From Halorhabdus sp. CBA1104 (GTDB lineage: Archaea > Halobacteriota > Halobacteria > Halobacteriales > Haloarculaceae): a DNA stretch of 64,000 nt. Positions 9,599 to 29,115 of this stretch are shown piece after piece. The DNA lies in the NCBI RefSeq assembly GCF_009690625.1, contig NZ_CP033878.1:2232001-2296000 (forward strand). The letters are read 5' to 3'. Within the stretch, counting starts at the first letter, position 1, and the number at the start of each line of letters is the position of its first letter. A program made the translations under genes and the position numbers. Under the pieces are notes generated by a model. The model was not told the DNA's origin. It worked only from the letters and a program-made list of their open reading frames with translations, and made no database searches.

Positions 9599-10057
9599 TT
9601 AGCTGCCCCAGAAGTTGTCACGGCTGCCGAGTTCGGGCCGATCCGGGCCGTCACGATCGTCGTCTGGCTCCTCGTCGACGGGCTCGTCGGTGTCCGCTGG
9701 GTCCGCTTGCGGTTGTTCGTCGTCCATCGGCAGGCGTTCGAGTTCCTCTGCACGGGCGTGATTGGAGTGGACGGTCGTCACCTTGACACGGGCCTTTGCT
9801 TCCGGCAGGACGCCATCGATCAGCAGGATGAATCCGTCCTCAGTGCGGCCGACGCCGGCCCCGCTCTCGTGAATGTCTTCGACGGTCACCACGACTTCCT
9901 CGCCCGGCTTGACTGGCTGTGACTGCAGATCCGAGATCGGCTGGTTGTAGTGGTTGCACCACTCGGCGCCCCCACGGTCGCCATAGTGGGTACACCCCAT
10001 CCCCTCGATCCGCTCGGTAAATTCGGGGCAATCGTCGGCGAGTGGACAGTCCGGCAT
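9599..10057 (-). CDS. TRAM-domain protein with N-terminal cysteine cluster (intact copy)
   Basis: 152 aa from ATG 10057. N-terminal CPLADDCPEF plus GCTHYGDRGGAEWCNHY gives a C/C/C/C cluster likely to bind zinc. The TRAM domain follows at about residues 45-110 (VKPGEEVVVTVEDIHESGAG, then LIDGVLPEAKARVKVT), then an acidic disordered tail. TRAM domains bind RNA, so a role in RNA metabolism is likely. Its first 68 codons plus 39 bp upstream are duplicated at 28873-29115, flanking the 19-kb secretion-like block. Confidence 0.83.
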   Translation of the reverse strand: MPDCPLADDCPEFTERIEGMGCTHYGDRGGAEWCNHYNQPISDLQSQPVKPGEEVVVTVEDIHESGAGVGRTEDGFILLIDGVLPEAKARVKVTTVHSNHARAEELERLPMDDEQPQADPADTDEPVDEEPDDDRDGPDRPELGSRDNFWGS

Positions 10058-10096
10058 GCTAATTCGAGGTTATCTGTGTGTCGGCAAAACGTTTGC
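9854..10096. repeat. Left 243-bp direct repeat bounding the T4SS-like block
   Basis: Identical to 28873-29115 at constant offset 19019, with three mismatches that I can find (9857, one in codon 15 of the TRAM gene, and 10061). It spans the 5' part of the TRAM gene and its upstream region and ends abruptly at 10096. The near identity indicates a recent duplication or homogenisation. Confidence 0.88.
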
Positions 10097-10149
10097 GTCT
10101 ATCCGTCCACTCACTCGAACGCTCCGCGTCAGCTCTTCTGAAAGCAGTG

Positions 10150-10300
10150 TTGTTCGACGCCTTCGCCGCGCCGTCAGCGTCAATCACCAGCGTGTTCTCG
10201 GTCTCGGCCGATTCGAAGCCATCGATCGGACGTTGACTGATCGATTTGGCAACTTGGGAACCATCTATGGCAACAGCAATCGGAACGGAACGATGTGACC
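10150..10300 (-). pseudogene. Remnant of a paralogue of the gene at 29164
   Basis: Translated leftwards this reads VAKSISQ...IDGFESAETENTLV...DADGA, clearly alignable with ASICELDGLSAVETDDTL...GADGA at the C-terminus of the 29164-29463 protein. No start codon or N-terminal part is present. So the left flank of the block keeps not only the TRAM repeat but also a diverged scrap of the neighbour found beyond the right repeat. It is a relic of a second allele of the same locus. Confidence 0.55.
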
Positions 10301-10348
10301 GCTGTCTTAGACTCCTTCATCGAATGCCCGGATCGTAGACCGGCGTCT

Positions 10349-10398
10349 GATCGCCACCAGGTTCATCGCCGTCACTGCCATCAACGGCATCGCCGCTT
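10349..10398 (-). pseudogene. Scrap of the VirB6-like gene (last TM helix region)
   Basis: About 50 bp nearly identical to the stretch encoding PLMAVTAMNLVAI in the 633-aa VirB6-like gene (near 17131-17180) and in the truncated copy at 13628-13677. Nothing else of the gene survives here. It lies 50 bp beyond the stop of the last partner gene, so it marks a fifth, decayed tail unit at the far end of the cassette array. Confidence 0.65.
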
Positions 10399-10448: not shown

Positions 10449-11171
10449 CTACGTCTCGCCAATGCCATCGCCGTGGATGTCGAGTTTCCCGACCCCCTGC
10501 ACCAGATACTCCTCCGGTGGTTCCTCGCCCATGTGCAGGTATAGATCTCGTATCTGTGCCATCACGTGTTCCACCACCAACTCGTGGAAGTCCTCTTCGT
10601 AGGTGAACCCCTCCTCGAACTCTAAGGCTGGGATGGCACACACGATCTGTTCGTCCTCGGGGTAGTTCGGGAACGTCCCGTAATCGTTTGCCTCTCGCTC
10701 GTTGAGCACTTCCCGAACGAACACCGGGGCAACGTCCAGTATCTCACTTCCCTGGAAGCGGAACACCTTCAGCACCACCACACCCTCCAGGTTGATCGAC
10801 GGCTTCTCAATGAATGCTGCTGGATCGGCCAACGCCTCGTAGAAGTCTCTGAATTGCTCGTGGAATCGGTCCAACGGGTAATTGATCAATGCTTCGAGTC
10901 CCGCATCGAGGTGTTCCGGATCCCACATCGGATCCAGGATGGCTGCCTCGGGAAACTCCTGTTGGGCCGCGTATCGGGCGCGTTCCTCGACCTGGCACAT
11001 GATCCGCTGCTCGTCGTCCGTCCGGTCGTCTGGTTCGTGGGGGTAGTCGTCGGTTCCGTGGTAAGTGATCGCTCCAGACCAATCCATCGCAATTTGGTGG
11101 TCTAATCCCTTCTCATCCGTTACTAGGACGGCAACTTCTTCATCGTCATAATTTACCAGTTCTGCTTCCAT
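10449..11171 (-). CDS. Tail-partner protein, subtype A (cassette 4)
   Basis: 240 aa, ATG 11171, soluble and acidic, no signal or TM. It belongs to a four-member family in this array. Shared framework: an N-terminal beta-rich region with IAMDWSG, then DDYPHEPDDRTDDEQRIM, QVEERARYAAQQEFPEA and a helical FxEQFRDFYEAL block; C-terminal half ends FHELVVEHVMAQIRDLYLHM, GEEPPEEY. Subtype A is marked by DPMWDPEHLDAGLEALINY. It starts 3 nt after the stop of its subtype A tail. Possible roles are immunity protein, chaperone or adaptor for the tail; the sequence does not decide. I recognise no Pfam family. Confidence 0.7.
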   Translation of the reverse strand: MEAELVNYDDEEVAVLVTDEKGLDHQIAMDWSGAITYHGTDDYPHEPDDRTDDEQRIMCQVEERARYAAQQEFPEAAILDPMWDPEHLDAGLEALINYPLDRFHEQFRDFYEALADPAAFIEKPSINLEGVVVLKVFRFQGSEILDVAPVFVREVLNEREANDYGTFPNYPEDEQIVCAIPALEFEEGFTYEEDFHELVVEHVMAQIRDLYLHMGEEPPEEYLVQGVGKLDIHGDGIGET

Positions 11172-11174
11172 GGG

Positions 11175-11909
11175 TCACTCTTCCTCCTTCTCGAATAGCT
11201 CGTGGCTGTTCGCTTCATCCGCACTCCCTCCAGCCGACTCGCCATCGCCCGAACCGCCAGTGCCGTAGTACTCACTCACCGTATCTCGTGTGTACTCACT
11301 TACCGCCGACGCGCTCTCTGTCACTGCTGTCTTCGCTTCTTTGAACGTCCCCAACGCTCCCTTATCGATACTTCGCGCTGCCATGTACCCGCCAATCCCG
11401 CCCGCAGCCGCCTGCGCTCCCGTCGCTAACGCCATCCCTGCCACGCCTGCTGCACCAAGCCCAGAGCCAGCGATCGCTGTGCCGACTGCCACTGAAACAC
11501 CACCCTTCGCTATCTCCTTCGCCATTCCCTTTGCCGTGCTATCATCACTCAGCTTCGACTCGATCATCTCGTCGCGCGCTTCTAACTGTTCGGCCAGGTG
11601 CTCGTCGCCACCGGCCATCTCCATGTAGGCCCCCTTCTCCATTACCACGCTCTCGTCGCTCTCGGCTTCGGACGCCTCGTCTTCAGCACCCACCTCGCTT
11701 TCGAGTCTGTCGAGGCGACCCTCCACGTCTCCACTACGCTCCTCGCTCGATGGCTCTTCGTACTCCTCACGCCCGGGCTCGGTGTATTCCTCGCGCTTGC
11801 CCCCCTCGTCGGCGACACCGTCTCCGTACTTATCCAGCGATGACTGTTCTAAGTCCGGCGTCGTGTAAATCGACCGCCCAACGCCACCACTCACCACGCT
11901 CGTCGTCAC
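11175..11909 (-). CDS. Orphan VirB6 tail, subtype A (cassette 4), 5'-truncated
   Basis: About 244 aa with no ATG start (first usable codon is GTG at 11909, directly at the stop of the upstream partner gene). Homology to the full-length tail begins at TTPDLEQSSLDKYG (about residue 16). Then follow an acidic linker, DVEGRLDRLESEVGAE (coiled coil), a helical region, and a Gly/Ala-rich hydrophobic stretch (about 125-180: AVGTAIAGSGLGAAGVAGMA). The end is Gly/Ser/Glu-rich. It lacks the membrane domain, so it is probably a silent or displaced tail, like orphan CT modules in polymorphic toxin loci. Confidence 0.62.
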   Translation of the reverse strand: MTTSVVSGGVGRSIYTTPDLEQSSLDKYGDGVADEGGKREEYTEPGREEYEEPSSEERSGDVEGRLDRLESEVGAEDEASEAESDESVVMEKGAYMEMAGGDEHLAEQLEARDEMIESKLSDDSTAKGMAKEIAKGGVSVAVGTAIAGSGLGAAGVAGMALATGAQAAAGGIGGYMAARSIDKGALGTFKEAKTAVTESASAVSEYTRDTVSEYYGTGGSGDGESAGGSADEANSHELFEKEEE

Positions 11910-12652
11910 TAGTCGTAGTATTCCTCGTCTTCAGTCGTCAGTGGCTTGCCCCAGATATCCGTTTCCTTGCAGTACTCCGGCGGTTCCTCACCGACGTGGT
12001 GGTAGACATCTCTAAGTTGGGCCAGCAGATGCTCGATGATGAATATCTGGAACCCATCCGGGAATTCGTAGGCTCCATCGTCGAATTCTATCGGTGGCAA
12101 CGTGATCTGGAACTTCGTCAAGTGCGGTTCGCCTACTAGTTCCTCGTATCGTGACTCCCTGTGGGTGTAGTGAGCCTCGCCCGACTCGTCTCTATATTTG
12201 ATTACTGGCGTCGGTACGTATGCCACCTCGTCGTCCTCGTTGACCAGAAACGGCTGGAAAAGGATCTCCGCCGTTTGCTCGGGCACTTCCGGCTCTGAAG
12301 CGGGCTCGGTGAGCATTCGATAGCAATCCCGAAACTTCTCGGCGAAGTCGTCCACGTGGAGCGTCTCTAAAGCCAGCATCGCCCGGTCCAGTTCTGCCGG
12401 AATCCACCCTGCCGGCAGGATATCTGCATCCGGAAACTCCTGTTGGGCCGCGAGTTTCGCCCGCTCTTTTACCTGCGTCATCAACTTCTGCTCTTCGAAC
12501 GTTCGGTCGGCTGGGTCGTGGGGGTAGTCGTCGGTTCCGTGTTCTCGAATTGTTCCATCCCACTCAATCGTTAACCGGTGTTCATAGCCATTCTCATCAA
12601 ATACCTGTACCCCACAATCCTTCTCATCATGTCCCAGTATTTTCGTATTCAT
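11909..12652 (-). CDS. Tail-partner protein, subtype B (cassette 3)
   Basis: 247 aa from ATG 12652. Over its last 170 residues it is almost identical to the partner at 15387-16139 (for example LPAGWIPAELDRAMLALETL and EEPPEYCKETDIWGKPLTTE). The first 75 residues differ clearly (MNTKILGHDEKDCGVQVFDE against MKTDILGHDDKAIGVEVIDE), so the gene is mosaic. It starts 19 nt after the stop of a subtype B tail. Soluble, acidic, no membrane segment. Role as for the other partners. Confidence 0.7.
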   Translation of the reverse strand: MNTKILGHDEKDCGVQVFDENGYEHRLTIEWDGTIREHGTDDYPHDPADRTFEEQKLMTQVKERAKLAAQQEFPDADILPAGWIPAELDRAMLALETLHVDDFAEKFRDCYRMLTEPASEPEVPEQTAEILFQPFLVNEDDEVAYVPTPVIKYRDESGEAHYTHRESRYEELVGEPHLTKFQITLPPIEFDDGAYEFPDGFQIFIIEHLLAQLRDVYHHVGEEPPEYCKETDIWGKPLTTEDEEYYD

Positions 12653-12671
12653 ATTTCACTTAGTTGAAATG

Positions 12672-13781
12672 CTAATACTTTGTATCATCAGCGCCTTTCG
12701 CATCCCCTCCGGCCGACTCGCCATCGCCCGTCCGCCACTCCGCCGTTTTCACCGAGCCCTTCTCCGTCCAGTCTTTCAGCTCCGACTTGAAGTCTGATAG
12801 CTCACTCTTGAACGAGTTCTTCAGGTCCTTCCCCTTCCCGATTTTCGACGTGATCGATTCCACTCCAGTTCCAGCGATCCCTTGGCTAGCTCCGAGCACT
12901 GCGGCACCTGCTACTGCGCCTGCCGCTACCACCGGTGCCGCTCCACCCGCTGCTGCTAGTCCCACGCCTGCTGCCACCGCTCCCTTCACCGCATCTCCAC
13001 CAATTCCACGCAGATACTTGTTCCCATCATCACCCTGGGCCTGGTCCACTGTCCGTGATTTGTTCATCACGTCGTACATCAGCTTGCCCTGTTCCTCCTC
13101 GTCCATCTTCGTCATCGCTTCACCCAACTCCTCGCGCTCGATCTCCTCGAAGTGGATATCCGACGCTGTCGGGTTCTCCAGATCCGACAGTGACTCCTCG
13201 GCCCCATCGGACGATTCGGTGCTCTCTGTCGACTCTGAATCGTCCGCGGTGGATGTCTCGGACTCGCTCTCCGGTGACGCGTATTCCTGCCGGTCGCTGT
13301 CGGCCTCGTCCAGGCGGTCACTTTCTAAGGCCGACATCGGCGTCTGCTCTAAGTCCGGCGCTGTATCGTTGACCGTCTGCGAGTCGCGCTCGTCTCCACC
13401 ACCACCGCCAGCAGCCGACGCCGCTGCCGGTGCCGGGCCGCCCCCAAACCGGTTGTTCACTCCCGTCTGATCCCCACCGCCCATCACGCCGCCAGCTATA
13501 CCGCCCCCACCGCCCGACACCGCACCGCTCGCCTTGCTCGCCCCGCCTTTCATCGCACCCTTCGCTTGGCCTGTCATCGCACTGGCCACACCACCCATCG
13601 CACCGCTCAACCACTTCACGACGTACGTGATCGCCACCAGATTCATCGCCGTCACTGCCATCAGCGGCATCGCTGCCGCTAACAGCGGATGTACCGGACT
13701 CCCCCACTGGAACGCTCCGAAAAACTGCTGTTCGAGTGCTCCGTTTCTTCGAGACCCGATACTGCTGCGATAATGCAACAC
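12672..13781 (-). CDS. Orphan VirB6 tail, subtype B (cassette 3), 5'-truncated
   Basis: Up to 369 aa, but the frame opens only with GTG at 13781 and the first 28 residues are unrelated to anything nearby. From SPVHPLLAAAMPLMAVTAMN it copies the last TM helix and the whole tail of the 633-aa protein: Gly-rich linker, TAPDLEQTPMSAL, Ser/Asp/Glu-rich linker, IHFEEIEREELGEAMTKMD, a hydrophobic Ala/Gly stretch and a conserved C-terminus (ELKDWTEKGSVKTAEWRTGD). The linker after MSAL differs most. It is the longest truncated copy and carries enough homology to recombine with the active gene. Confidence 0.62.
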   Translation of the reverse strand: MLHYRSSIGSRRNGALEQQFFGAFQWGSPVHPLLAAAMPLMAVTAMNLVAITYVVKWLSGAMGGVASAMTGQAKGAMKGGASKASGAVSGGGGGIAGGVMGGGDQTGVNNRFGGGPAPAAASAAGGGGGDERDSQTVNDTAPDLEQTPMSALESDRLDEADSDRQEYASPESESETSTADDSESTESTESSDGAEESLSDLENPTASDIHFEEIEREELGEAMTKMDEEEQGKLMYDVMNKSRTVDQAQGDDGNKYLRGIGGDAVKGAVAAGVGLAAAGGAAPVVAAGAVAGAAVLGASQGIAGTGVESITSKIGKGKDLKNSFKSELSDFKSELKDWTEKGSVKTAEWRTGDGESAGGDAKGADDTKY

Positions 13782-13792
13782 GACTCTCTATC

Positions 13793-14539
13793 CTACATTC
13801 CCTCTAGCAGCAATTCTTCGGCCGATCCGTCTTCGTCGCCGTAGATGTCTAATTTTCCGTGCCCCTGTACCCGGTATTCCCGCGGTGGCTGCTCGCCCAT
13901 GTTCAGGTAGATATCTCGTATTTGGGCCATCAGGTGATTGACCAGAAAATCCGGGAAGTGCTCCTCGAACGTGATGTGGTCCTCGAACGCTATTCGGGGC
14001 ATACTACAAACAATGAGTTCCTCGCGCGGGTACTCCCACGTCTTCCCCGTCGAGTGTGCCGTTCCGTCTGTCCGCTCGTAAACTATCTCGATGTCTGAGA
14101 CCTCTACAACCTGGCCGTCACGTACTCGAAATGGCTTGGCAATCCCCGACGTCTCTGGGTCCATGTCCGGGTCGTCCACGAACTCTGACGGCCGCTGCAA
14201 CGCTTCGTAGTAGTCTCTGAACTGCTCTTGGAACTCTGCTAACGGGTAGTTCGTCAGCGCTTCGAGCCCTTCTTCGATATGCTCCGGGTCCCACAGCGGG
14301 TCCAAGATGTCTGCCTCGGGAAACTCCTGTTGGGCCGCGTATCGGGCGCGCTCCTCGACCTGGCACATGATTCGCTGCTCCTCGTCTGTTCGGTCGTCTG
14401 GGTCGTGGGGGTATGATTCTTGAGAATGTCTTTGAATGCGTCCATTCCATTCGATGGTGATGACATGTCTGTTTTCGCGTTCATCATAGACCTCTACCCC
14501 ACAATTTTCTTCTTTGTGTCCGACAACTTTTGCTTCCAT
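13793..14539 (-). CDS. Tail-partner protein, subtype A (cassette 2)
   Basis: 248 aa if started at ATG 14539 (MEAKVVGHKEENCGVEVYDE), which aligns with the starts of the other partners; an upstream ATG at 14569 is possible. It shares YPHDPDDRTDEEQRIMCQVE and EERARYAAQQEFPEADILDP with the subtype A partner at 10449, and VQGHGKLDIYGDEDG with its C-terminal VQGVGKLDIHGDG. The middle (residues about 125-185) differs between the two. It lies 26 nt downstream of its subtype A tail. Soluble acidic protein of unknown fold. Confidence 0.7.
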   Translation of the reverse strand: MEAKVVGHKEENCGVEVYDERENRHVITIEWNGRIQRHSQESYPHDPDDRTDEEQRIMCQVEERARYAAQQEFPEADILDPLWDPEHIEEGLEALTNYPLAEFQEQFRDYYEALQRPSEFVDDPDMDPETSGIAKPFRVRDGQVVEVSDIEIVYERTDGTAHSTGKTWEYPREELIVCSMPRIAFEDHITFEEHFPDFLVNHLMAQIRDIYLNMGEQPPREYRVQGHGKLDIYGDEDGSAEELLLEGM

Positions 14540-14565
14540 ATTGCCATTATCCAATTTTCCAATCG

Positions 14566-15390
14566 TCATGCGTAATCATCACCTTCAAATCCATCTGACT
14601 CCCCGCCACCCGACTCGCCTTCGCCCGAACCGCCAGGCAGGGCGTACGAATACGTTTCTTTTGCTTTCGACTTTACACCACTCGTCGCCTCCGACACGCG
14701 TTCGAGGCCGCCTCGCACTGACCCTTCGCCGACCATCCGCGACGCTGCGTAACCGCCAATACCGCCTGCTGCCCCGCCGATCGCACCACCTAGGGCCGCA
14801 CCTGCTGCCGTCCCGACTGGTCCCGCGATCGAACCGCCGATGCCACCCAGTGCCGCTCCCACCGTTTGCCCTGCGCCCGCGCCCGCTGCTCCGGCAACCG
14901 CGCCTTTCGCCGCCTCCTGACCCATCGCCGTCGACTCGTCGGGCTCGGACAGTGACGCCATCTTCTGGTCCATCGCCACCATCGTCTTTGCCATCTCCTC
15001 GTTGTCCGTCATCGACTTCGCTTCATCCACTGTTAATTCTCCCGGCGTGTAGGATTCTGCTGGATCGTCCTTGCTCTCGGCGCTTACCTCGCTTTCGAGC
15101 CTGTCGAGGCGACCCTCCACGTCTCCACCGCTACTCCCCTCGTCAGTCGATGGCTCGGCGTATTCGCGCTCGCCCTGGCCGCCCCCCAAACTACCCTCAC
15201 CGTACTGATCCAGCGACGATTGCTCCAAGTCCGGCGCCGTGTTCTCGACCGCCTGCGAGTCGTGACTGTCATCCTGACCCCCACCACCGCCCGCCGCTGC
15301 AAGTAACACGCCGACAACGCAATTACTCCTGAATGGTTGCGTTGCGTATCTTGTCCCGCAAACGCTACCACTCACTGCTCGTGCTGTCAA
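14566..15390 (-). CDS. Orphan VirB6 tail, subtype A (cassette 2), 5'-truncated
   Basis: About 274 aa opened only by TTG at 15390, overlapping the stop of the preceding partner gene. The first 28 residues look random; homology to the full-length protein starts at LLAAAGGGGGQDDSHDSQAV and continues through ENTAPDLEQSSLDQYG. Subtype A marks follow: DVEGRLDRLESEVS, a helical stretch with MAKTMVAMDQKMASL, then a long glycine-zipper-like hydrophobic run (about 165-225) and a Gly/Glu-rich end. It has no membrane anchor of its own. Probably silent unless recombined onto the 633-aa gene. Confidence 0.62.
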   Translation of the reverse strand: MTARAVSGSVCGTRYATQPFRSNCVVGVLLAAAGGGGGQDDSHDSQAVENTAPDLEQSSLDQYGEGSLGGGQGEREYAEPSTDEGSSGGDVEGRLDRLESEVSAESKDDPAESYTPGELTVDEAKSMTDNEEMAKTMVAMDQKMASLSEPDESTAMGQEAAKGAVAGAAGAGAGQTVGAALGGIGGSIAGPVGTAAGAALGGAIGGAAGGIGGYAASRMVGEGSVRGGLERVSEATSGVKSKAKETYSYALPGGSGEGESGGGESDGFEGDDYA

Positions 15391-16139
15391 ATGTCGTAGT
15401 ATTCCTCGTCTTCCGTCGTCAGTGGTTTGCCCCAGATGTCCGTTTCCTTGCAGTACTCCGGCGGTTCCTCACCCACGTGCCGATAGACGTCTCTGAGTTG
15501 GGCCAGCAGATGTTCGATGATGAATATCTGAAACCCGTCCGGGAATTCGTAAGCACCATCGTCGAATTCTATCGGTGGCAATGTGATCTGGAACTTCGTC
15601 AAGTGCGGTTCGCCTACTAGTTCCTCGTATCGTGACTCCCTGTGCGTGTAATGAGCCTCGCCCGACTCGTCTCTATATTTGATTACCGGCGTCGGTACGT
15701 ACGCCACCTCGTCGTCCTCGTTGACCAGAAACGGCTGGAAAAGGATCTCCGCCGTTTGCTCGGGCACTTCCGGCTCTGAAGCGGGCTCGGTGAGCATTCG
15801 ATAGCAATCCCGAAACTCCTCGGCAAAGTCGTCCACGTGGAGGGTCTCTAAGGCCAACATTGCCCGGTCGAGTTCGGCCGGGATCCACCCTGCCGGTAGG
15901 ATGTCTGCATCCGGAAACTCCTGTTGGGCCGCGAGTTTTGCCCGCTCCTCGACCTGAACCATGATCCGCTGTCCTTCGTCTGTCCGGTCTTCTGGTTCCT
16001 TTGGATACGTTCCTTCATCTCGAGAGTGCTTCTCTATAGAACCATCCCATTCGATATTTACAATATGACGGATGTCCCGCTCGTCAATTACCTCAACGCC
16101 GATTGCTTTATCATCGTGCCCCAATATGTCAGTTTTCAT
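15387..16139 (-). CDS. Tail-partner protein, subtype B (cassette 1, paired with the full-length gene)
   Basis: 250 aa from ATG 16139; this start aligns with its paralogues and lies 13 nt after the stop of the 633-aa gene, whereas upstream codons overlap that gene. Domain layout as in the other partners: N-terminal VEVIDERDIRHIVNIEWDG, DRTDEGQRIMVQVEERAKLA, helical FRDCYRMLTEP, C-terminal FQIFIIEHLLAQLRDVYRHV. As the only partner next to an intact VirB6-like gene, it is the best candidate for the active immunity, chaperone or adaptor protein. Confidence 0.72.
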   Translation of the reverse strand: MKTDILGHDDKAIGVEVIDERDIRHIVNIEWDGSIEKHSRDEGTYPKEPEDRTDEGQRIMVQVEERAKLAAQQEFPDADILPAGWIPAELDRAMLALETLHVDDFAEEFRDCYRMLTEPASEPEVPEQTAEILFQPFLVNEDDEVAYVPTPVIKYRDESGEAHYTHRESRYEELVGEPHLTKFQITLPPIEFDDGAYEFPDGFQIFIIEHLLAQLRDVYRHVGEEPPEYCKETDIWGKPLTTEDEEYYDI

Positions 16140-16152
16140 TGTTATATGTAAG

Positions 16153-18054
16153 TTATGAGAAACGGTTGTCCGAGTGGTCAACACCACTCCCGCCGGCCGA
16201 CTCGCCATCGCCCGTCCGCCACTCCGCCGTTTTCACCGAGCCCTTCTCCGTCCAGTCTTTCAGCTCCGACTTGAGGTCTGATATCTCACTCGTGAGCGAG
16301 TTCTTCAGATCCTTTCCTTGGCCGATTTTCGTCGTAAGCGATTCCACTCCAGTTCCAGCGATCCCTTGGCTAGCTCCGAGTACTGCTGCACCTGCTACCG
16401 CGCCAGCCGCTACCATCGGCGCTGCTCCACCAGCAGCTGCTATCCCTACTCCTGTCCCCACCACCCCCTTCACTGCATCTCCACCGATTCCACGCAGGTA
16501 CTTGTTCCCATCATCACCCTGGGCTTGGTCCACCGTGCGTGATTTGTTCATCACGTCGTAGAGCAACTTACCCCGCTCTTCGTCGTCCATCTTCGTCATC
16601 GCTTCACCCATCTCCTCGCGCTCAATTTCCTCGAAATGAATGTCCGATGCTTTCGGACGCTCCAGGCCCGACGGCGACTCACTCGCCCGATCGATCGTGT
16701 CCACGCTCTCTGTCGGCCCCGAGTCTGCCTCCGTGATCGACTCGCTTCCCAACGCTTCGCCATCGCTTTCCGGCGACCCGTATTCCTGATGACCACTCTC
16801 GCTGTCACCCTCGGCCAGGCGCTCGTTATCCAGCGCTGACATCGGCGTCTGCTCCAACTCCGGCGCTGTATCGTTGACCGTCTGCGAATCACGCTCGTCA
16901 CGACCGCCACCGCCAGCAGCCGACGCCGCTGCCGGTGCTGGGCCGCCGGCAAACTGGTTGTTCACTGCCGTCCGGTCGCCACCGGCCATCCCACCGACCA
17001 TGCCGCCACCCACACCGCCCGACACCGCACTGCTCGCCTTGCTTGCCCCGCCTTTCATCGCACTCTTCGCTTTGCCCGTCATCTTGCTCGCCGCACCACC
17101 CATCGCACCGCTCAACCATTTGACCACGTACGTAATCGCCACCAAGTTCATCGCCGTCACTGCCATCAGCGGCATCGCCGCCGCCAGCAACGGATGCACG
17201 CTACTCCCCGACGCGAACGCCGCGTCAACTCCGCCTGACTCGACCGATCCGCCGGCCAGCATCGCCAGCGATCCGTGGGCAAACTTCAATCCGACCGCGA
17301 ACACGCCTGCGATCAAGATGCCACCGGGGATCAACATCCCCGTCGCTTTGAACAACTTCTCGCCCACCGCCTTTGCGTACTTCAGCGGGCCGAGTTCCCC
17401 GATCCAGAACACGATCAACAAGGGATACAGTCCGTACGTCAGGTAGACGATCACTTTCCGAGCGACCAAGACGACGACCAGCAGCAACTGCCCGACCGTG
17501 ACGATCAACCCCATCACGACGCCGAACAACAACAGCACGAACGACCCCGCACCGCCCGTGTCCGGACTCGCCGACACCGTGAACGTCGTCGACTCCAAGA
17601 ACAAGTCGATCGTCGCGTTCGATACCTCGAACGCTGCTGCGAACAATCCGCGACCCCACAGCGTCGGCCCCCAACCCGGCGGATTGACGATAAACAGCGA
17701 TAACGTGGCCGCCAGCGCACGCCCGGCGAACCGGTACGGATCCGACTTCTTGCCGTCCGGGAAGAACTGAAACATCCCGAGGTGGGCCAGCGCAAAGACT
17801 GTCAACAGCGCGAAATAGATCCCCACCGACAGCTCCCACATGTCCTGAAACTGCTTGAGTGCAGTCGGGTTCAGATGCAACAGCGTCTGCATCGACCCGT
17901 TGAGGAGATACCCGATCAGCGTGAACACCGCGTTGAAAATCTGCGTGTTGATCCACTCGACGAGCGCGTCGAGACCGAAACTGATCAACACGATGCCGTT
18001 GCTGGAGAGGTTGCCAACCAACCACTGGACCTCACCCGCAAACAGCACCCCCAT
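16153..18054 (-). CDS. VirB6/TrbL-like polytopic membrane protein with exchangeable C-terminal tail
   Basis: 633 aa. Residues 1-315 hold about six hydrophobic helices with the signature shared by its two paralogues: GRALAATLSLFIVNPPGWG (112-129), LVARKVIVYLTYGLYPLLIV (196-215) and GELGPLKYAK. This matches VirB6/TrbL channel subunits. Residues 320-380 are Gly/Ala-rich and flexible. The motif TAPELEQTPMSAL (396-408) opens a soluble tail: acidic linker, helical IHFEEIEREEMGEAMTKMDD (about 472-491), hydrophobic Ala/Gly hairpin (529-562) and a basic-acidic helical end. It is likely to sit in the cell membrane with the tail exposed. It heads the tail/partner array; three displaced tails lie downstream. 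Confidence 0.78.
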   Translation of the reverse strand: MGVLFAGEVQWLVGNLSSNGIVLISFGLDALVEWINTQIFNAVFTLIGYLLNGSMQTLLHLNPTALKQFQDMWELSVGIYFALLTVFALAHLGMFQFFPDGKKSDPYRFAGRALAATLSLFIVNPPGWGPTLWGRGLFAAAFEVSNATIDLFLESTTFTVSASPDTGGAGSFVLLLFGVVMGLIVTVGQLLLVVVLVARKVIVYLTYGLYPLLIVFWIGELGPLKYAKAVGEKLFKATGMLIPGGILIAGVFAVGLKFAHGSLAMLAGGSVESGGVDAAFASGSSVHPLLAAAMPLMAVTAMNLVAITYVVKWLSGAMGGAASKMTGKAKSAMKGGASKASSAVSGGVGGGMVGGMAGGDRTAVNNQFAGGPAPAAASAAGGGGRDERDSQTVNDTAPELEQTPMSALDNERLAEGDSESGHQEYGSPESDGEALGSESITEADSGPTESVDTIDRASESPSGLERPKASDIHFEEIEREEMGEAMTKMDDEERGKLLYDVMNKSRTVDQAQGDDGNKYLRGIGGDAVKGVVGTGVGIAAAGGAAPMVAAGAVAGAAVLGASQGIAGTGVESLTTKIGQGKDLKNSLTSEISDLKSELKDWTEKGSVKTAEWRTGDGESAGGSGVDHSDNRFS

Positions 18055-20503: not shown

Positions 20504-20644
20504 CTATTCGTTCAAGCTGGTAGCAGCCCGTTGCTGTCGATCAGTACCCCCACACAGCACAGTTTGTTTCACCACTCCGTATATTCCAATTGCATAAATA
20601 TTATTCCATCTGCGTATGAATATCCAATTGGTGCGTTCAATATA

Positions 20645-21463: not shown

Positions 21464-21823
21464 ATGACGCGCAGATGCAACCAGCGATTGACGTCTGAAC
21501 TTGGACAGATACTACGAATACTGGCCATCCTGACGGTCGTGTTGACACTAACCGTTGGCCCTGCCCTTGCGCAAAATAATTCGAGTGCCCCGACCCAGCA
21601 AGATCTAAAAAATAAGATCAATCAAGTCGGGCAATTTCTCTCGATAGTCATCGTCGCCGTAGCAGTACCCAATGGGGCATTTGGGCTATTCCAGTGGATG
21701 ACTGCTGGGACGGACACGGAACAAAGTGACAAAGGCCGTAAACGGATACGCAACTCTTTCATCGGTGCCGGAGGGGCCGCAATCGTCATGATGGCAGTGC
21801 AAGTGCTTGCCAACATGGTCTAA
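21464..21823 (+). CDS. VirB2/TrbC-like pilin
   Basis: 119 aa from ATG 21464. A basic N-terminus and hydrophobic signal end at ALAQ (residues 33-36), a plausible signal peptidase I site. The mature part has two TM helices (about 57-79 and 100-118) joined by a short charged loop (TDTEQSDKGRKRIRNSF). Size, signal peptide, two-helix hairpin and polar cytoplasmic loop are the hallmarks of VirB2/TrbC pilins and of the archaeal conjugation-like pilins. It is the likely main filament subunit of the apparatus. Lies 31 nt before the large surface protein gene. Confidence 0.75.
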   Translation: MTRRCNQRLTSELGQILRILAILTVVLTLTVGPALAQNNSSAPTQQDLKNKINQVGQFLSIVIVAVAVPNGAFGLFQWMTAGTDTEQSDKGRKRIRNSFIGAGGAAIVMMAVQVLANMV

Positions 21824-21853: not shown

Positions 21854-23674
21854 ATGAAGAAGGAGTTGGTAGCGCTACTGGTCGTTCTCGTCTCGATCAC
21901 AGCAGTCACTGGAGCGATGGTCACGGCCACGGCAGTATCATCGGATCAGGAGCGAGCGTTCTTCTCTGATGACGATGACATCAACGGAAGCCAGTTGTCC
22001 AACCCGAACGAGCCAGAAAATTTTGTGAAAATAGCCGATATTCCGTATTATACCACAAAGCCGGAGTACGAGATTGGAAATACAACACTCTTCGAATACC
22101 AAAAAGACAGTCTGGATAACATAGATTCAGACCTGCGTTCATCCTTTGTATTAGATCGTTCAGAAACTACTGATTCGAATATTATCAAAGACGCACACGT
22201 AACGTTTCTGGGCATACACGGCGGGGCAATGAGTCTGGCACGAAGCGGGCGCCACGGCTCACATGCGCTGGCAAATACGTTTGTAATTGGCTCTGAGGGA
22301 ACAGTGTTATCGCATCTCGACTATCGAATTCGTGAGGATATCCCGCCGGCTGACTACTGTGGACCCAAGGACAAAGACACACGTACCAGGGATTACGACA
22401 ACGATTCGGTTGTGGAAACATTTTGGATTGACGGCTCCCAAACCTGCTATCGATATTCGATGGAGGTCGAAGATACTCGTAGAGTGTCTATCGGTGGAAG
22501 ATCGTTTTCTGGAGAAGACACCATTCAGTATACTGGGCTCACGTCGAATTCCAAAGTGGACCTCAGTATGCGCGGGTCAGTCTCCGTCCGCGTAACCGAA
22601 ACGCGCATCTATCGAGACTGGGACCCGAGGACACGGTATGCAGACGGATGGAGCGACGGCTACTGGGACAGTACAACAGGATCCCCAAGCTTGTATCGGG
22701 AGGATAGTGTTAGTTTGTCGAGTGCATCATATGATACCTTGGTAACTGACACGGGCGATCTAGACATTCACCAACGCATCATCAACGTCAACAACGAAAC
22801 GAGTCACATCGTGCTCACACTGGATGGTCCGCGCGGAAACAATGCTGTTCGTACGAAGCACCTCATGGATCGATTACTCTGGAGCCACCTGACGATCGGG
22901 TCAGGAACTGCATTCGTCGATTCGACCTGGCGAACCTATTCTGCGCGACAGTATACCCAAGCCCGACGGTTTACCGAGAGTGGTTCGAATACTATCCACT
23001 CACCGCCGCAGGTACCCAGAACGTTCTTGATAGGAACAGACCGTCGCCCAACGATCAACCCGGTAGATCGATCGTCATCTGTGTCGAGTTCGCAAATAAT
23101 CGGATTCGAAGGCTACAACGTGACGTTGCCACAGACAAATCACTCTGAGGTAACGATCGATCCGTCGGTCCCGATCGAATATTCGCGTCTCGTAATTCAG
23201 AACGCACCTGGTAACGTCACGTCCTTGAGGACGATCCACGGCAAGCGAGTAGAAGTCGATGTCGACGAAGTACTCCAATATCGGCAACCGAACGTGTCGA
23301 TAACTGCGGTCTCTGATAACCGAGTCAAGATTCACGTCGAAGATCCAGCTACGAACCAGCCGTTGGGAGGTCGCCAAGTGCGTCTCTACGGCGTCGATCC
23401 CAACCGAACAAACCCCAACGGTGTCGCCATTACGGACGCTTCTGGTGACGTTGTGGGTGAACGAACGAATACGCTGGTCAGAGCGAGAGTGCAACAAGAC
23501 GACTGGGAAAGCCCAACAGGATCAGTGTTTTACGGACAAACAGTGGCATCGAGGACGTTCCTTCCGAATGTACTGCTATTGGAGCGAGCGCATTCACTAC
23601 TGGAGACGATACTCCTTGTAGCGCCGCTCGTGTTTCTGTATGGGTACATCCGTCACTTTGGATTGTTCGAATGA
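21854..23674 (+). CDS. Large exported, C-terminally anchored surface protein
   Basis: 606 aa. N-terminal signal peptide (MKKELVALLVVLVSITAVTG), a long extracellular region rich in Ser/Thr/Asn with several N-glycosylation sequons, an Ig-like or carboxypeptidase-regulatory-like repeat near residues 485-560 (VEDPATNQPLGGRQVRLYG), and a C-terminal TM helix (LETILLVAPLVFLYGYI). Codon use is more AT-rich than in housekeeping genes. No enzyme motif. Being 31 nt behind the pilin gene, it is probably an accessory, adhesin or scaffold of the pilus-like machine. I do not recognise its family. Confidence 0.65.
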   Translation: MKKELVALLVVLVSITAVTGAMVTATAVSSDQERAFFSDDDDINGSQLSNPNEPENFVKIADIPYYTTKPEYEIGNTTLFEYQKDSLDNIDSDLRSSFVLDRSETTDSNIIKDAHVTFLGIHGGAMSLARSGRHGSHALANTFVIGSEGTVLSHLDYRIREDIPPADYCGPKDKDTRTRDYDNDSVVETFWIDGSQTCYRYSMEVEDTRRVSIGGRSFSGEDTIQYTGLTSNSKVDLSMRGSVSVRVTETRIYRDWDPRTRYADGWSDGYWDSTTGSPSLYREDSVSLSSASYDTLVTDTGDLDIHQRIINVNNETSHIVLTLDGPRGNNAVRTKHLMDRLLWSHLTIGSGTAFVDSTWRTYSARQYTQARRFTESGSNTIHSPPQVPRTFLIGTDRRPTINPVDRSSSVSSSQIIGFEGYNVTLPQTNHSEVTIDPSVPIEYSRLVIQNAPGNVTSLRTIHGKRVEVDVDEVLQYRQPNVSITAVSDNRVKIHVEDPATNQPLGGRQVRLYGVDPNRTNPNGVAITDASGDVVGERTNTLVRARVQQDDWESPTGSVFYGQTVASRTFLPNVLLLERAHSLLETILLVAPLVFLYGYIRHFGLFE

Positions 23675-24102: not shown

Positions 24103-26466
24103 TTAGCTAACCGTGCCGGGCGAGTCCGATTCAAGAATTTGGTGGACAGATTGTCGCTCGTCGTCTGGAATATCTGTCCAGTCGATCATCTCATTATCGT
24201 AGAGTAATGCCCAGACGTTCATATTGCTGTCAATGACGTGATGTTCGAATTCGTTCGAAATGACTCGCATGCGCATCTTCCCTTTGTCAGTGACATACAG
24301 TAGCGATTCAGAGTACTCCGCTGAGTTACCCGCCTGGGCTTGTAATACGAAATCCCGTTCTCGGGGAGTGAGATCGAGTGCTTCGATCGCTGTGTCGCCG
24401 ATATCCTGGTGTCGCATCAGCGCACGAATGTCACACTGGTCGTAGATTTCCTTCGCCTTCGAATTGGCCATAAATTCATCGACGGTCTGACTGATGAGAG
24501 TGAGACCGCTTCCATAGTGGCGGCTGTGCCGTGCAAACAGGTTGAGCATGTCCAGTGCCTGTTCGTGACCCAGCATATAGTGTGCCTCGTCGATCATGAC
24601 CACCATGTTCTCGGTGTTCGCCTTCGCTCGCTGGAATAGCCAGTCGAGCACGATATGCATAATGAGCCCTTCGTTACTGCCATCGGCGACGCTCGAGAGA
24701 TCGAACTGTACGATGCGATCTTCGAGGCGGACGTTCGTTTCTCCATTGAGATTCGATCGCTGCCCGCCCTGTTTGAAGTCTTCCAGTCCCAGCAAGACAC
24801 TATGAGCGTAATCGGCAATTCGTTCGGCTTGCTCGCGTTCTTCGACAGATGTTTCTGTGTTTATTGTCGTTATTTCTGAACGAACTGATTCTGGAACGTC
24901 GAGGAACTCTCCTGGTGGATCGCCGTTGGACATCTTGCGTAAGACATCTATCACATCCCCAATTTGAGGACTGGGTTGGTGATGGGTGCCGATATCCTTC
25001 GTAATCCCCCGTTCGAGGTACGCATACCGGATCGCCCGTCTGAGGACACCTTCTTCTTCTTTGCCTAACTCGCGTTTGCCTCTGAAGTGCGATTCGAACA
25101 ACCCCATCACACTCCGGATCTTGTCGTCGTACGGATCACCTTCGATATCGTCGATGCTTTCTACCTGCTTGATTTCGAGTGGATTGATCGTGGTCTGGTT
25201 GTCGATCGTTACTCTCTGCCCACCTACCGCTTCCACCAGATCACCGAATCCACCCACAGGATCGATAATGAGAACTTCTGTCTCGGGATCCATCATCAAT
25301 CGACGCCACATGACGAGTTTGGCTAGATAGGACTTCCCAGAGCCGATCTTCCCTGATATCAACATGTTGTGGCCCGACTGAGCAAACCGATCCACGATTA
25401 TTGGAGCGTTGGTTGACATCTGAAAGCCCATGAGGACACCGCTTGACTCCACGACAGACTTATCAGTAAATGGGTAGGTTGTGCCGAGAGCCTCAAGGTC
25501 CATAATTTGGGTATTCTTGACGCTATCTGTTCCGAGAGGAGCAACGGCATTCTGCGCTTCGAGCTGTCTATCGTACAAGGTCGTCACACGAGCGTTCGAT
25601 TGGGAGAGGATTTGTTTGAGTTCCTTCGTTGCTTCGTCTAGCGTCTCTTCGGAGTCGGAAATAACTTCAAAGTAGACGCCGAAGTCGAACAATTTCGTCG
25701 AACCCTCAGTCAATCCCTCCCGTAGACGGTCAACGTGAGAGAGTTGCTTTTCTTCTTCAATCGTGTTGAGTTTCCCATCACTTTTTTTCCGACGGATTTG
25801 AGAAGTGAGTCGGGTTGCTTTCACATCGAGTTTTCGTTTCATTTGCTCGGAATCACGTGGCCAGATCTGGTACGAAACGCGCAATTCTGCTCCATTTACC
25901 GATAACCCACTCGTGAATGCCTGGTCGAGCCATCCAAGGGCCACTCGGTTCGGAAAACTCGAAATTATAAGTATCCTAGCGTATCGTTCCTCACCAGAAT
26001 CCCCTAACCGTTTGACATAGCTTTGGGTTTCTGTGATACGATCGGGGGCGACATTGACTCTGGCTGATTCACTCCGTTTGTTCTCATCGCCAATGATACC
26101 GACATCAGTCGAGTCTTCAGAGTGTTTATCTTGTTGAACTGCTTCAATATGCTCTGAAAGCGTTTCTTCTGATATATCTTCACTCGATTGTTCGAGTCGG
26201 CGTGCTGCCTCTGTGAGAACCTCTGTATCGATATCGTCTTTCGAAGTCTCTGCAGATCCCATACTGAGATCGGTTTCGAGAAGGCCGTCAGTTGGCGCCA
26301 TTAGAACAATTGCACCGATGAAAACAATACCGCCACCAAGGAGGATTCCAACGGTTGGAACTACCCCGAACGTGTCTAAAAAGTCCTGAATCAATAACGG
26401 TACCAACGTGGTACTATCATCAATACCACTGCTCGTAAACTCGATCGGCGTCGCACTATCTATCAT
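24103..26466 (-). CDS. VirB4/TraC-family secretion ATPase
   Basis: 787 aa. One or two N-terminal hydrophobic helices (about 20-57) anchor it; residues about 160-300 match the second half of the VirB4 N-terminal (CagE/TrbE) domain (ARILIISSFPNRVALGWLDQ). The AAA/HerA-like motor follows: Walker A GKIGSGKSY (372-380), IDPVGGFGDL strand, Walker B VVMIDEAHYML (about 622-632), then SQTVDEFM sensor region. It powers pilus assembly or substrate transport at the membrane. The start overlaps the stop of the upstream gene by 4 nt (ATGA). The membrane helices at the N-terminus are unusual for VirB4 and recall archaeal variants. Confidence 0.88.
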   Translation of the reverse strand: MIDSATPIEFTSSGIDDSTTLVPLLIQDFLDTFGVVPTVGILLGGGIVFIGAIVLMAPTDGLLETDLSMGSAETSKDDIDTEVLTEAARRLEQSSEDISEETLSEHIEAVQQDKHSEDSTDVGIIGDENKRSESARVNVAPDRITETQSYVKRLGDSGEERYARILIISSFPNRVALGWLDQAFTSGLSVNGAELRVSYQIWPRDSEQMKRKLDVKATRLTSQIRRKKSDGKLNTIEEEKQLSHVDRLREGLTEGSTKLFDFGVYFEVISDSEETLDEATKELKQILSQSNARVTTLYDRQLEAQNAVAPLGTDSVKNTQIMDLEALGTTYPFTDKSVVESSGVLMGFQMSTNAPIIVDRFAQSGHNMLISGKIGSGKSYLAKLVMWRRLMMDPETEVLIIDPVGGFGDLVEAVGGQRVTIDNQTTINPLEIKQVESIDDIEGDPYDDKIRSVMGLFESHFRGKRELGKEEEGVLRRAIRYAYLERGITKDIGTHHQPSPQIGDVIDVLRKMSNGDPPGEFLDVPESVRSEITTINTETSVEEREQAERIADYAHSVLLGLEDFKQGGQRSNLNGETNVRLEDRIVQFDLSSVADGSNEGLIMHIVLDWLFQRAKANTENMVVMIDEAHYMLGHEQALDMLNLFARHSRHYGSGLTLISQTVDEFMANSKAKEIYDQCDIRALMRHQDIGDTAIEALDLTPRERDFVLQAQAGNSAEYSESLLYVTDKGKMRMRVISNEFEHHVIDSNMNVWALLYDNEMIDWTDIPDDERQSVHQILESDSPGTVS

Positions 26467-28229
26467 GTATCGTCATCCCTCACGTTTGAGCTATCCAGAT
26501 TGAACGGCTCTGTGTCAATTTGCATTCCTTTAGAAAATTCATCAGTCAATGGTTTTTCATTGTTATAATAGTGGTACAGAACAGCCATTGCTTCGTTTCG
26601 ATCAGTGAGCCGCTCTGACTGGACATCGAACCGTTGTAGTCCGCTCGAAATTCGGTTGAGCCGTGAATCCAGTTCTCGCAGTATTTGATGGGTGCTGATT
26701 GATTCTGAATCGTCGCCAAAGAAGTCAGCAACCGGCTCTGCCGGCGGAAACGAATCAGCCAGTGAATCAAGGAACCCGTCATCATCACTTCGAAACTGGT
26801 CGATCTGGTCGGCTGATATCGGTGCAATGATGTAGAATTCGCGCTGTTTCATATCGTTGTCAGATAGAAACTGTGTGAGCCACTCGGGATAGAGTGACCG
26901 TCCCATATCTGCAAGGCCACTCTCTCCATAGTCATCTTCTGAGAGATTACGTACAGATTGTAGCCGCTCTAAGTGGTCCGAAATATCGAAGTGTGTAGGA
27001 TACGAAACAATTTGGATCGGGAAATCCAGTGTCGCTAGGAACGAAGATTTATACGCACCGACAATCTCCGCTTTCTTTTCATTCGTGTGGATTGACCACG
27101 TCCGGGGGTGGACACGGGTGATTCCAGCATATTGTTTGTCATCTAATTTGATGAGGCCGCCAGCCCGAACGTCGTCTGGTACGAATTCTTCGTTCGAGTC
27201 GAGAACAAAATCGAAAGAGACGAGGTCTTGAGCATAATTTGATATCGACAGCGAACCACTTTCAGTGGGGTCACGGCGCTGCGGGGGATCGATAGTGCCT
27301 CGATGACGGTCATCAGGTGCTTGGGAGACACCCGTGTCGTCCGATTCCATAGATCCAAAACTGGAAGTTGATGTTTGCTGGCACCCTTGGTCGCTAACAG
27401 TCTCCGTCTCCGAGAGTGTCGCTGATTGAGAAAGCGTGTCGGCTCCTTCATCAGACTGCTCTGACTGTGCTGTCGATACTGTCGAATCCACTGAAGAAGA
27501 GTCTGTCACAGAACTCTGAGAAAGACGGTCCGATTGGGGACTTCCAGACTGTTCATTAGTAGCTTTGTCGTCGTTCGTCGATTGTTCACCGGACCGTAAC
27601 GTGTTATCTTCACTGGATTGGTCAGTGGGAGACGAGACATTATCCCGGGCAGTTTTGTTCGGAGGCCTATCACGATCTGCGTCTCGTGAACGGGCCTGTT
27701 CTCGGGAGAAATGGCCGGTCGTTTCGGCAGTTGCTTCGGTTGGGGTGCCGTCTTGGGGTTCCGTGCTATGTCTCTCCGACAGTTTCGGGCCGGATGCGCC
27801 TTGTTGGGATTGGTCTACAGTATGAGAGGACGATAATTGCTCTATTGAACTGAGCAGAGATAGCCGATGATCTATCTGTTCAGTACAAAGATGGTCAGCC
27901 GACTCGATCGCAGCTCGAAGCGAATTCGTCGAAACCCCATTGTCCAATGTGTGAGCCAGTATCCGTGTGAGCGTGATATCGTACGACTCTGGTAATCGCT
28001 GGCAATATCGCTCGAGGTGGGCTAATCGCCGGCCTTCACCGATTAACACGTGCTGTTCGCCGGCCTTCGCAAACGTGGCCAGGGCATCTTCCAAGGCCTC
28101 CTCTCCATCGAGGAGAGATTCAAGCCGAGAAATGCGATCTTGGACTGAAGCAGTTGTCTCCTCTAGGAGATGAGCCGCCTCCGTTTCGATCTCTTCACTC
28201 GGTGCTGTAGATGGAGAACTATTAGTCAT
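26463..28229 (-). CDS. Split N-terminal VirB4-domain protein with long disordered linker
   Basis: 588 aa. Residues 1-130 are helical; 130-325 are extremely Ser/Asp/Gln/Thr-rich and probably disordered. Residues about 335-500 resemble the first half of the VirB4 N-terminal domain of conjugation ATPases: RAGGLIKLDDKQYAGITRVH, then a helix and LATLDFPIQIVSYPTHFDI. The rest of that domain is in the next gene, so VirB4 seems to be split into two translationally coupled polypeptides (8-nt overlap upstream, 4-nt overlap downstream). It probably forms a complex with the ATPase at the membrane. The similarity is judged by eye. Confidence 0.6.
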   Translation of the reverse strand: MTNSSPSTAPSEEIETEAAHLLEETTASVQDRISRLESLLDGEEALEDALATFAKAGEQHVLIGEGRRLAHLERYCQRLPESYDITLTRILAHTLDNGVSTNSLRAAIESADHLCTEQIDHRLSLLSSIEQLSSSHTVDQSQQGASGPKLSERHSTEPQDGTPTEATAETTGHFSREQARSRDADRDRPPNKTARDNVSSPTDQSSEDNTLRSGEQSTNDDKATNEQSGSPQSDRLSQSSVTDSSSVDSTVSTAQSEQSDEGADTLSQSATLSETETVSDQGCQQTSTSSFGSMESDDTGVSQAPDDRHRGTIDPPQRRDPTESGSLSISNYAQDLVSFDFVLDSNEEFVPDDVRAGGLIKLDDKQYAGITRVHPRTWSIHTNEKKAEIVGAYKSSFLATLDFPIQIVSYPTHFDISDHLERLQSVRNLSEDDYGESGLADMGRSLYPEWLTQFLSDNDMKQREFYIIAPISADQIDQFRSDDDGFLDSLADSFPPAEPVADFFGDDSESISTHQILRELDSRLNRISSGLQRFDVQSERLTDRNEAMAVLYHYYNNEKPLTDEFSKGMQIDTEPFNLDSSNVRDDDT

Positions 28230-28689
28230 CTTTATTTAATTCCCCGAAAACATCATCAAACGCGATTTTATTCCACAGTGTTCCGGTGCTATCCGCTTCG
28301 TCAGAGTCTTGGATTGTGTACTGACCAGTGCTTGTTGACGTATCTCCCAGTTCAGAAATGGTATGGACGATATCCAGATGTGTCACCCGGCCTCGGCCGA
28401 CTGCCCGTGGTTTGAGATAATACGTATCAGGAGTGATTCGGCGTTTGAACGCAGCTGGAGCCCAGCTGAGGGGGGTTTGCCCCTCAGGCGTTTGAACGAT
28501 GACTAGTCCAACAAGTGAAGTCATTAAAACGATAGTTCCGATAGAAATTGAGAGAGGGATTTGGCCGATATACAAACTCGGAAGGACGACAACGAGCGGT
28601 ATCGTCCCGAGCGTGATTAGCTCGTTAAATGTCAGTCCCAAGATGAGATTGGTTCGCAGTATTTTCCCGGGTATTGGTACTGTCTTCAT
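28222..28689 (-). CDS. PrgI/VirB3-like small membrane protein
   Basis: 155 aa from ATG 28689 (MKTVPIPGKILRTNLILG); a GTG at 28716 would add nine residues. A TATA-like ACTTATACG lies about 30 bp upstream, fitting near-leaderless initiation at 28689. Two close TM helices (about 22-62) form a hairpin, followed by LSWAPAAFKRR and a soluble tail, the layout of PrgI-type proteins that precede VirB4 in conjugation loci. It is the first gene of the VirB4 operon and overlaps the next gene by 8 nt. Confidence 0.65.
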   Translation of the reverse strand: MKTVPIPGKILRTNLILGLTFNELITLGTIPLVVVLPSLYIGQIPLSISIGTIVLMTSLVGLVIVQTPEGQTPLSWAPAAFKRRITPDTYYLKPRAVGRGRVTHLDIVHTISELGDTSTSTGQYTIQDSDEADSTGTLWNKIAFDDVFGELNKDD

Positions 28690-28839
28690 ATCATGCAATA
28701 CGATCTCCACATACACGTATAAGTTTCTAATTGAACTAACATACTAATTGTTAGGATGTACTAACATGTATTGTGAGGAGGCGGCGAAGCTTCGGTAAGG
28801 ACTGTAAAAGCGAGAGTATTGACGGGGAAAGGAATACTA

Positions 28840-29076
28840 TCAGATCGTATGCGCGTCCGCGATGGGGTCAAAGCCAGCCCCGCTCTCGTGAATGTCTTCG
28901 ACGGTCACCACGACTTCCTCGCCCGGCTTGACTGGCTGTGACTGCAGATCCGAGATCGGCTGGTTGTAGTGGTTGCACCACTCGGCGCCCCCACGGTCGC
29001 CATAGTGGGTACACCCCATCCCCTCGATCCGCCCGGTAAATTCGGGGCAATCGTCGGCGAGTGGACAGTCCGGCAT
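28840..29076 (-). pseudogene. Truncated copy of the TRAM-domain gene
   Basis: Starts like the intact gene (MPDCPLADDCPEFTGRIEGM), is 98-99 per cent identical to it for 68 codons, then switches at 28872 into an unrelated tail (FDPIADAHTI) and stops. It keeps the Cys cluster and the first TRAM strands but loses most of the TRAM fold, so it is unlikely to work. Confidence 0.8.
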
Positions 29077-29115
29077 GCTGATTCGAGGTTATCTGTGTGT
29101 CGGCAAAACGTTTGC
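28873..29115. repeat. Right 243-bp direct repeat bounding the T4SS-like block
   Basis: Partner of the repeat at 9854-10096. Beyond 29115 the sequence is the ordinary chromosomal neighbour (gene at 29164), while inside 28872 the block begins. The repeat includes the promoter of the TRAM gene, so transcription may run leftwards from here into the block. Confidence 0.88.

Follow-up and report, generated by a model that had tools for sequence, protein, structure and literature searches.

A haloarchaeal type IV secretion locus with exchangeable VirB6 tails and partner genes: a possible T4SS-borne polymorphic toxin system

The main survey of polymorphic toxin systems describes type IV secretion systems (T4SS) as not used for delivery (PMC3482391), and for Ced and Ted, the archaeal T4SS that import DNA, neither variable tails nor partner cassettes have been described (PMC9905601). 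The subject of this report is a 19-kb block at positions 9854-29115 of the window, which is the whole 64-kb stretch analysed (C1:2232001-2296000 of the complete 2.63-Mb Halorhabdus genome G000). The block encodes a T4SS-like machine, with VirB4, a T4SS pilin, three VirB6-like proteins and a PrgI/VirB3-like protein, and one of the VirB6-like proteins ends in a variable tail that is followed directly by a partner gene, here called I. We lean, with somewhat better than an even chance, towards the view that the block is a T4SS-borne polymorphic toxin with VirB6 as its carrier, in which the tail would be toxic and would be delivered by the machine. The first-pass annotation of this DNA had proposed a Ced-like DNA importer and mentioned polymorphic tails and a protein-delivery machine only in passing; it is to the latter that the cassette array and the exchange of active and silent tails lead.

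Tail and partner cassettes and their exchange

Positions 10449-16208 hold a tandem array of four cassettes, each consisting of a tail and its partner; one tail stands on a full-length VirB6 (T1) and the other three are truncated. The members of the array are as follows.

16153..18054, minus strand: T1, full-length tailed VirB6 of 633 aa (core about residues 1-345, linker, variable tail about 450-633), with a VirB6-like fold in a low-confidence model
15387..16139, minus strand: I1, partner (putative immunity protein) of T1; profile A1; 87% identical to I3
14566..15390, minus strand: T2, silent tail cassette; 74.6% identical to the active tail of Halorhabdus salina
13793..14539, minus strand: I2, partner of T2; 87.1% identical to the partner of the H. 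salina active tail; AlphaFold pLDDT 86.6
12672..13781, minus strand: T3, silent cassette of VirB6 3' end and tail; DNA 84% identical over 1037 bp to the T1 3' region
11909..12652, minus strand: I3, partner of T3; 87% identical to I1
11175..11909, minus strand: T4, silent tail cassette; 40% identical to T2
10449..11171, minus strand: I4, partner of T4; 53% identical to I2
10348..10396, minus strand: VirB6 3'-end remnant that closes the array; 94% identical to the corresponding part of T1 and of T3

Identities across these pairings (I1 with I3, T2 with T4, I2 with I4) are lower. I1 and I3 are themselves mosaic, residues 1-58 at the N terminus being 53.6% identical and the C-terminal rest 97.4%, which indicates that recombination cuts inside the partner gene too. 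The tails are rich in Gly and Ala and often hydrophobic, while the I proteins are acidic and, by hydropathy, soluble, with no segment resembling a transmembrane (TM) helix in any of the 26 examined. An ADP-ribosyltransferase tail was considered for the long, non-Gly-rich tail of the G274 VirB6 (L049:13488-16061, minus strand) and rejected, the motifs having been seen by eye only and neither Pfam nor PDB sequence searches lending support.

The cassettes were compared with those of H. salina (FL145, L007). The 345-aa VirB6 core is 87.5% identical between the two loci and the tails 28.7%, with identity dropping past about residue 360-400. The active tail of H. salina matches the silent T2 of the window, as listed above, and the active T1 tail of the window is 68.7% identical to a silent cassette of H. 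salina; active and silent tails have changed places between the two species, and the I proteins track their tails (87.1% for the T2 partner, 76.5% for the T1 partner). An apparent fusion of VirB6 with I in H. salina proved to be an assembly gap read as X and not a true fusion. Over 26 cassettes from 10 genomes, tail and I distances correlate (Mantel r 0.67), a value never reached in 5000 within-locus permutations of I (p 2e-4), which shows tail and I to be units that move together.

Much the same gene set, with tail and I cassettes, is found in relatives whose VirB4 is 57-91% identical (Halorhabdus, Haloarcula, Haloferax mucosum, G274 and G088); in the Haloarcula amylolytica assembly the cassette array lies on a different contig. 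The cassettes are the most exchanged part of the locus, and they are retained without VirB4 in three genomes (G268, G168 and G002). As judged from sequence, the arrangement has the layout of a polymorphic toxin system: a conserved N-terminal region with a variable tail, a covarying downstream partner, and standalone cassettes that recombine. In our literature searches, outside whose scope one relevant survey of archaeal toxin systems lay, archaeal cassettes borne on VirB6 did not turn up, and we therefore regard the locus as a new variation on a familiar layout, that of polymorphic toxins, carried here by a T4SS VirB6.

The partner family behind contractile-injection effectors

The I family (profile A1) is present in 53 of 391 haloarchaeal genomes of the class, including all eight genomes of the close VirB4 clade that were drawn in the class sample (hypergeometric p 7e-8). 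In genomes without the tailed T4SS, I lies mostly 0-7 bp behind, or overlapping, effectors with the eCIS_core domain (PF13699, E 1e-28 to 1e-44). These eCIS_core (DUF4157) effectors carry a C-terminal tail and occur with I in arrays of pairs. The contractile injection system (CIS) cluster of Haloferax larsenii includes two DUF4157-I pairs. Over the 222 residues searched, Haloferax relatives have a CIS sheath about 86-87% identical to the one from Halogeometricum borinquense (PDB 9EZM). The DUF4157 proteins encoded at corresponding positions in H. borinquense are toxic in Haloferax volcanii, an effect that the next gene neutralises (PMC11566945). The eCIS_core domain is absent from all 11 tested genomes with VirB6 tails and I, G000 among them, and present in all four tested genomes with eCIS/I arrays, and from this split we conclude that the I family has two alternative carriers. 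No relatives of I were found in viral contigs.

Some loci (L090-L093, L106) hold about 5-12 tandem I genes without matching effectors. Arrays of this kind (L090, L091, L093 and L106) are possible immunity stores, and some of them, in Natrialbaceae-like genomes, stand behind a single 752-aa eCIS_core effector. At L104:7963-10365 (plus strand) an I domain is fused to a long N-terminal region resembling helical repeats; another I gene follows, with no toxin nearby.

The T4SS-like machine and its insertion

The remaining features of the block are these.

28222..28716, minus strand: PrgI/VirB3-like protein of 164 aa; two TM-like segments near the N terminus; in relatives conserved upstream of x588 and VirB4
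26463..28229, minus strand: x588, soluble protein; C-terminal 300 aa or so conserved; adjoins VirB4 in tail-type and conjugative-type loci
24103..26466, minus strand: VirB4 ATPase of 787 aa; P-loop_TraG (Pfam) E 3e-11; NCBIfam CD1110-family VirB4 E 3e-62; PDB 4ag5 E 3e-11
21854..23674, plus strand: surface protein of 606 aa; signal-like N-terminal segment and C-terminal TM segment; conserved in tail-type and conjugative-type relatives
21464..21823, plus strand: T4SS pilin (VirB2-like) of 119 aa; PF18895 T4SS_pilin E 9e-7, above cut-off
20531..21271, plus strand: membrane-anchored S16 (Lon-type) protease; Lon_C E 4e-4, just under cut-off
19568..20503, minus strand: VirB6 paralogue A, tail-less, 311 aa; 26% identical to T1; five TM-like segments
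18155..19501, minus strand: VirB6 paralogue B, 448 aa, with a short basic tail; 35% identical to T1
9854..10096, no strand: left direct repeat of 243 bp; 98.8% identical to 28873-29115; 5' part and upstream region of a TRAM-domain gene; matches the uninterrupted site of Halorhabdus G318
28873..29115, no strand: right direct repeat of 243 bp, copy of the left

The first-pass annotation had listed VirB4, a PrgI/VirB3-like protein, three VirB6 paralogues, a pilin, an S16 protease and a surface protein as clustered here, and all of these genes are present. The reading of the block as T4SS-like is upheld. By its sequence, VirB4 is certain; it has one TM-like segment, and it is far nearer to the conjugation ATPases of monoderms, through the CD1110-family model (a match that falls below that model's cut-off), than to CedB, whose model NF041017 gives E 1.6e-4 and 20 bits against a 700-bit cut-off. 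The pilin, recognised by PF18895, reaches only E 0.05 with the TrbC/VirB2 profile. The VirB6-like proteins match no VirB6/TrbL profile; that the three are paralogues is seen from their identities to one another (those of A and B to T1 above), and the top three PDB folds for the AlphaFold model of T1 are R388 TrwI/VirB6 (Foldseek probability 0.99-1.00, E 0.007-0.018), with a VIA Z of 11.3 over 235 residues, short of the value of about 13 below which the tool urges caution with helical proteins. Only this core match was used, with caution, and it may be taken as support and not as proof, because the model is poor (pLDDT 44) and the protein helical. The PrgI/VirB3-like protein has no profile match, its assignment being one of topology and synteny, and for x588, likewise without a match, a likeness to the VirB4 N-domain was judged by eye only. 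The S16 protease occurs in seven of eight tail-type loci, versus none of four conjugative-type loci.

The block is an insertion, since Halorhabdus G318 lacks it and has the same neighbours unbroken (SDR, TRAM gene, small gene, GNAT-like, PhoU-like and the next gene), and since the 243-bp direct repeats, whose outer ends are exactly 9854 and 29115, flank it and put a copy of the TRAM gene's 5' end on either side. Its G+C content falls to 0.48, versus about 0.63 in the flanks. On the favoured reading the block was acquired horizontally. The arrangement of the repeats is that expected from a circle integrated by a single crossover. H. salina and Halorhabdus G268 carry the block on the far side of the small gene, at a distance of a few hundred bases, and their insertion junctions therefore differ from that of the window. 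The G268 copy (L099:5500-11500) is decayed: an internal deletion has removed VirB4 and joined the VirB3 start to a truncated paralogue A, while B, T and I are retained.

No coupling protein, PF03432 relaxase, primase or integrase was seen in the block. Searches of the 2.63-Mb genome for VirD4 (PF02534; PF10412 was not searched genome-wide), for homologues of the haloarchaeal coupling ATPase and for a PF03432 relaxase (other relaxase families were not searched) all came back empty, so that, as far as these searches reach, the lack of relaxase and VirD4 first noticed in the block holds for the whole genome.

A proposed weapon, its rivals and its relatives

If the block is a polymorphic toxin system, a T4SS stripped of DNA-processing and coupling genes would serve as a contact weapon. 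A VirB2-like pilus and a channel of VirB3, VirB4 and VirB6 would be assembled, and the T1 tail, as a polymorphic toxin that probably acts on membranes, would get to a neighbouring cell along with the machine or by way of it, perhaps once cut by the S16 protease, a candidate processing protease. The I protein encoded downstream would be a soluble, cytosolic immunity protein specific for its tail. The three silent cassettes, among which T3 keeps a long VirB6 3' piece, would form a store from which homologous recombination could move a tail onto the expressed VirB6, and the old I genes would continue to protect against former tails. The wider proposition, that this T4SS is a launcher of polymorphic toxins with VirB6 itself carrying the warhead, with tails switched by recombination, and with one immunity family serving two unrelated archaeal injection machines (T4SS and contractile tails), strikes us as just as apt to be wrong as right.

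Several observations weigh against a toxin. No known toxin domain was found in the tails by Pfam, PADLOC or PDB searches, and only 10 of 26 have a hydrophobic segment resembling a TM helix. Proteins that confer immunity to pore formers usually sit in the membrane, whereas I is soluble. For the fold of I even the best PDB match (E 0.09) falls short of significance, and the weak EsaG-like rows (Z 2.5-2.7) were set aside. The covariation of tail and I speaks for units that move together and does not demonstrate binding, because linkage alone can yield such a correlation. BLAST matches between VirB6 tails and eCIS-effector tails were no better than a reversed-sequence control, so that a claim of homology was dropped and what the two share is appearance only. 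That the partners tested in H. borinquense belong to the I family is suggested by synteny in Haloferax, the H. borinquense genome itself lying outside the searched set. Salinibaculum KK48, whose VirB4 (62%) belongs to the VirB4 clade of this block, is laid out like a conjugation locus and has no I. About 1 kb from where its cassette array ends, Haloarcula G102 encodes a relaxase (PF03432 E 2e-7) and a coupling protein of the TrwB/TraG type (PF10412 E 1e-29). Finally, the systems studied so far have the C terminus of VirB6 in the cytosol (PMC6536674), which leaves the exit of the tail unexplained.

The main rival, unlikely in our view and still the strongest of the alternatives, is entry exclusion or kin recognition, in which the VirB6 tail would probe the partner cell and a cognate I there would stop or permit transfer, as with TraG and TraS of the F plasmid, the cassettes changing mating groups. 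TraG is a polytopic T4SS membrane protein in which a variable C-terminal stretch (17% identity inside a protein that is 93% identical) sets specificity with a partner in the recipient (PMC9797247), a pattern that nearly matches the split between core and tail seen against H. salina. Exclusion explains a variable tail and its partner equally well, and the relaxase and coupling genes beside the Haloarcula array suit it. It leaves unexplained the pairing of I with contractile-injection effectors, where no DNA moves and relatives are toxic (PMC11566945); I, moreover, has no TM segment, whereas TraS is an inner-membrane protein, and neither a coupling protein nor a PF03432 relaxase was found in this genome. 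To our knowledge TraG/TraS has neither a silent cassette store nor an eCIS pairing. Were exclusion nevertheless true, archaea would have here a recombining system akin to mating types, which would be no less unusual.

Improbable, to our minds, is a conjugative or mobilisable element, perhaps a decayed one, on which the VirB6 tails are incidental. The flanking repeats and the uninterrupted site in G318 would fit it, as would the conjugation-type layouts of the KK48 plasmid and of the clade at 40% identity. A relaxase and coupling protein co-occurring with the cluster in relatives would, according to the first-pass annotation, have made it an ordinary conjugative element; such a pair occurs at one of eight related loci (G102), and the sequence retrieved around the other seven did not contain it. 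In G168, where the array stands without a T4SS, a relaxase, a NikA-like protein and a TrwB-type coupling protein adjoin it as in G102, the Haloarcula module (L042:65-5481, L096:3-4375) comprising a TraG-like ATPase, a NikA-like protein, a MobA/VirD2-type relaxase (PF03432) and a TrwB-type coupling protein (PF10412). Of eight genomes searched, three, all Haloarcula, have a PF03432 relaxase somewhere and five have none; archaeal genomes have been described as without an apparent bacterial-type relaxase (PMC9905601), which makes this module worthy of note. Against an incidental role for the tails stand the genes missing from the block and the fact that tail and I cassettes are what is most exchanged, and what is kept where VirB4 is lost. 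From the modules of G102 and G168 and the layout of KK48, it is probable that the weapon-like form descends from a machine for conjugation, and on some plasmids the two may act jointly to this day.

A hair less probable again is a Ced/Ted-like importer for the exchange of chromosomal DNA, as first proposed for this locus and not supported by the analysis: the minimal VirB4-VirB6-VirB2 set without relaxase and the PF18895 pilin agree with it, but the VirB4 is far from CedB, no HerA/NurA/Rad50-like gene was recognised in the block, and tails, I genes, cassette switching and the place of I behind eCIS effectors would be left unexplained. Least probable of all is that I is a cytosolic chaperone or adaptor that loads VirB6 tails and eCIS effectors, which its directly downstream, soluble, acidic product common to two secretion machines would allow, since the orphan I arrays fit immunity storage better and the Halogeometricum gene downstream of DUF4157 toxins prevents toxicity (PMC11566945).

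Should the polymorphic toxin reading be true, it would add a T4SS delivery route to those of polymorphic toxins, where the main survey calls it unused (PMC3482391), and the effector would be part of the translocation channel and hence need no coupling protein. One immunity family would then link two haloarchaeal contact weapons, and a mechanism of archaeal self/non-self discrimination would be directly testable in the genetically tractable Haloferax volcanii.

Among described systems, F-plasmid TraG/TraS (PMC9797247) shares with this locus a T4SS membrane protein that has a variable C-terminal region and a cognate partner, and differs in the membrane location of TraS. The bacteria-killing T4SS of the Xanthomonas type (PMC6536674) resembles it as a T4SS proposed to be a contact weapon with immunity genes, but there separate effectors are recruited by VirD4 via XVIPCD, whereas here VirD4 is absent and the tail is part of VirB6. 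Ced and Ted (PMC9905601) have in common with it VirB4, VirB6, a VirB2-like pilin and the lack of a relaxase, and differ in that the VirB4 here is nearer to the monoderm conjugation ATPases and that no HerA/NurA accompanies it. With the DUF4157/eCIS_core effectors of haloarchaeal contractile (T6SS-like) injection (PMC11566945) it shares the I family, whose members stand downstream of such effectors in genomes of Haloferax and in Natrialbaceae-like ones, as well as arrays of pairs and Gly-rich C-terminal tails of similar look, whereas eCIS_core is absent from this genome and homology of the tails is not demonstrable. Alike in layout are the polymorphic toxin systems (Rhs, CdiA-CT/CdiI, MafB; Zhang et al. 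2012, PMC3482391), which differ in that the carrier here is the T4SS channel protein VirB6, with no known toxin fold found in its tails, and which likewise have a conserved carrier with a variable C terminus, a partner directly downstream, silent cassettes with carrier remnants, and exchange between active and silent tails.

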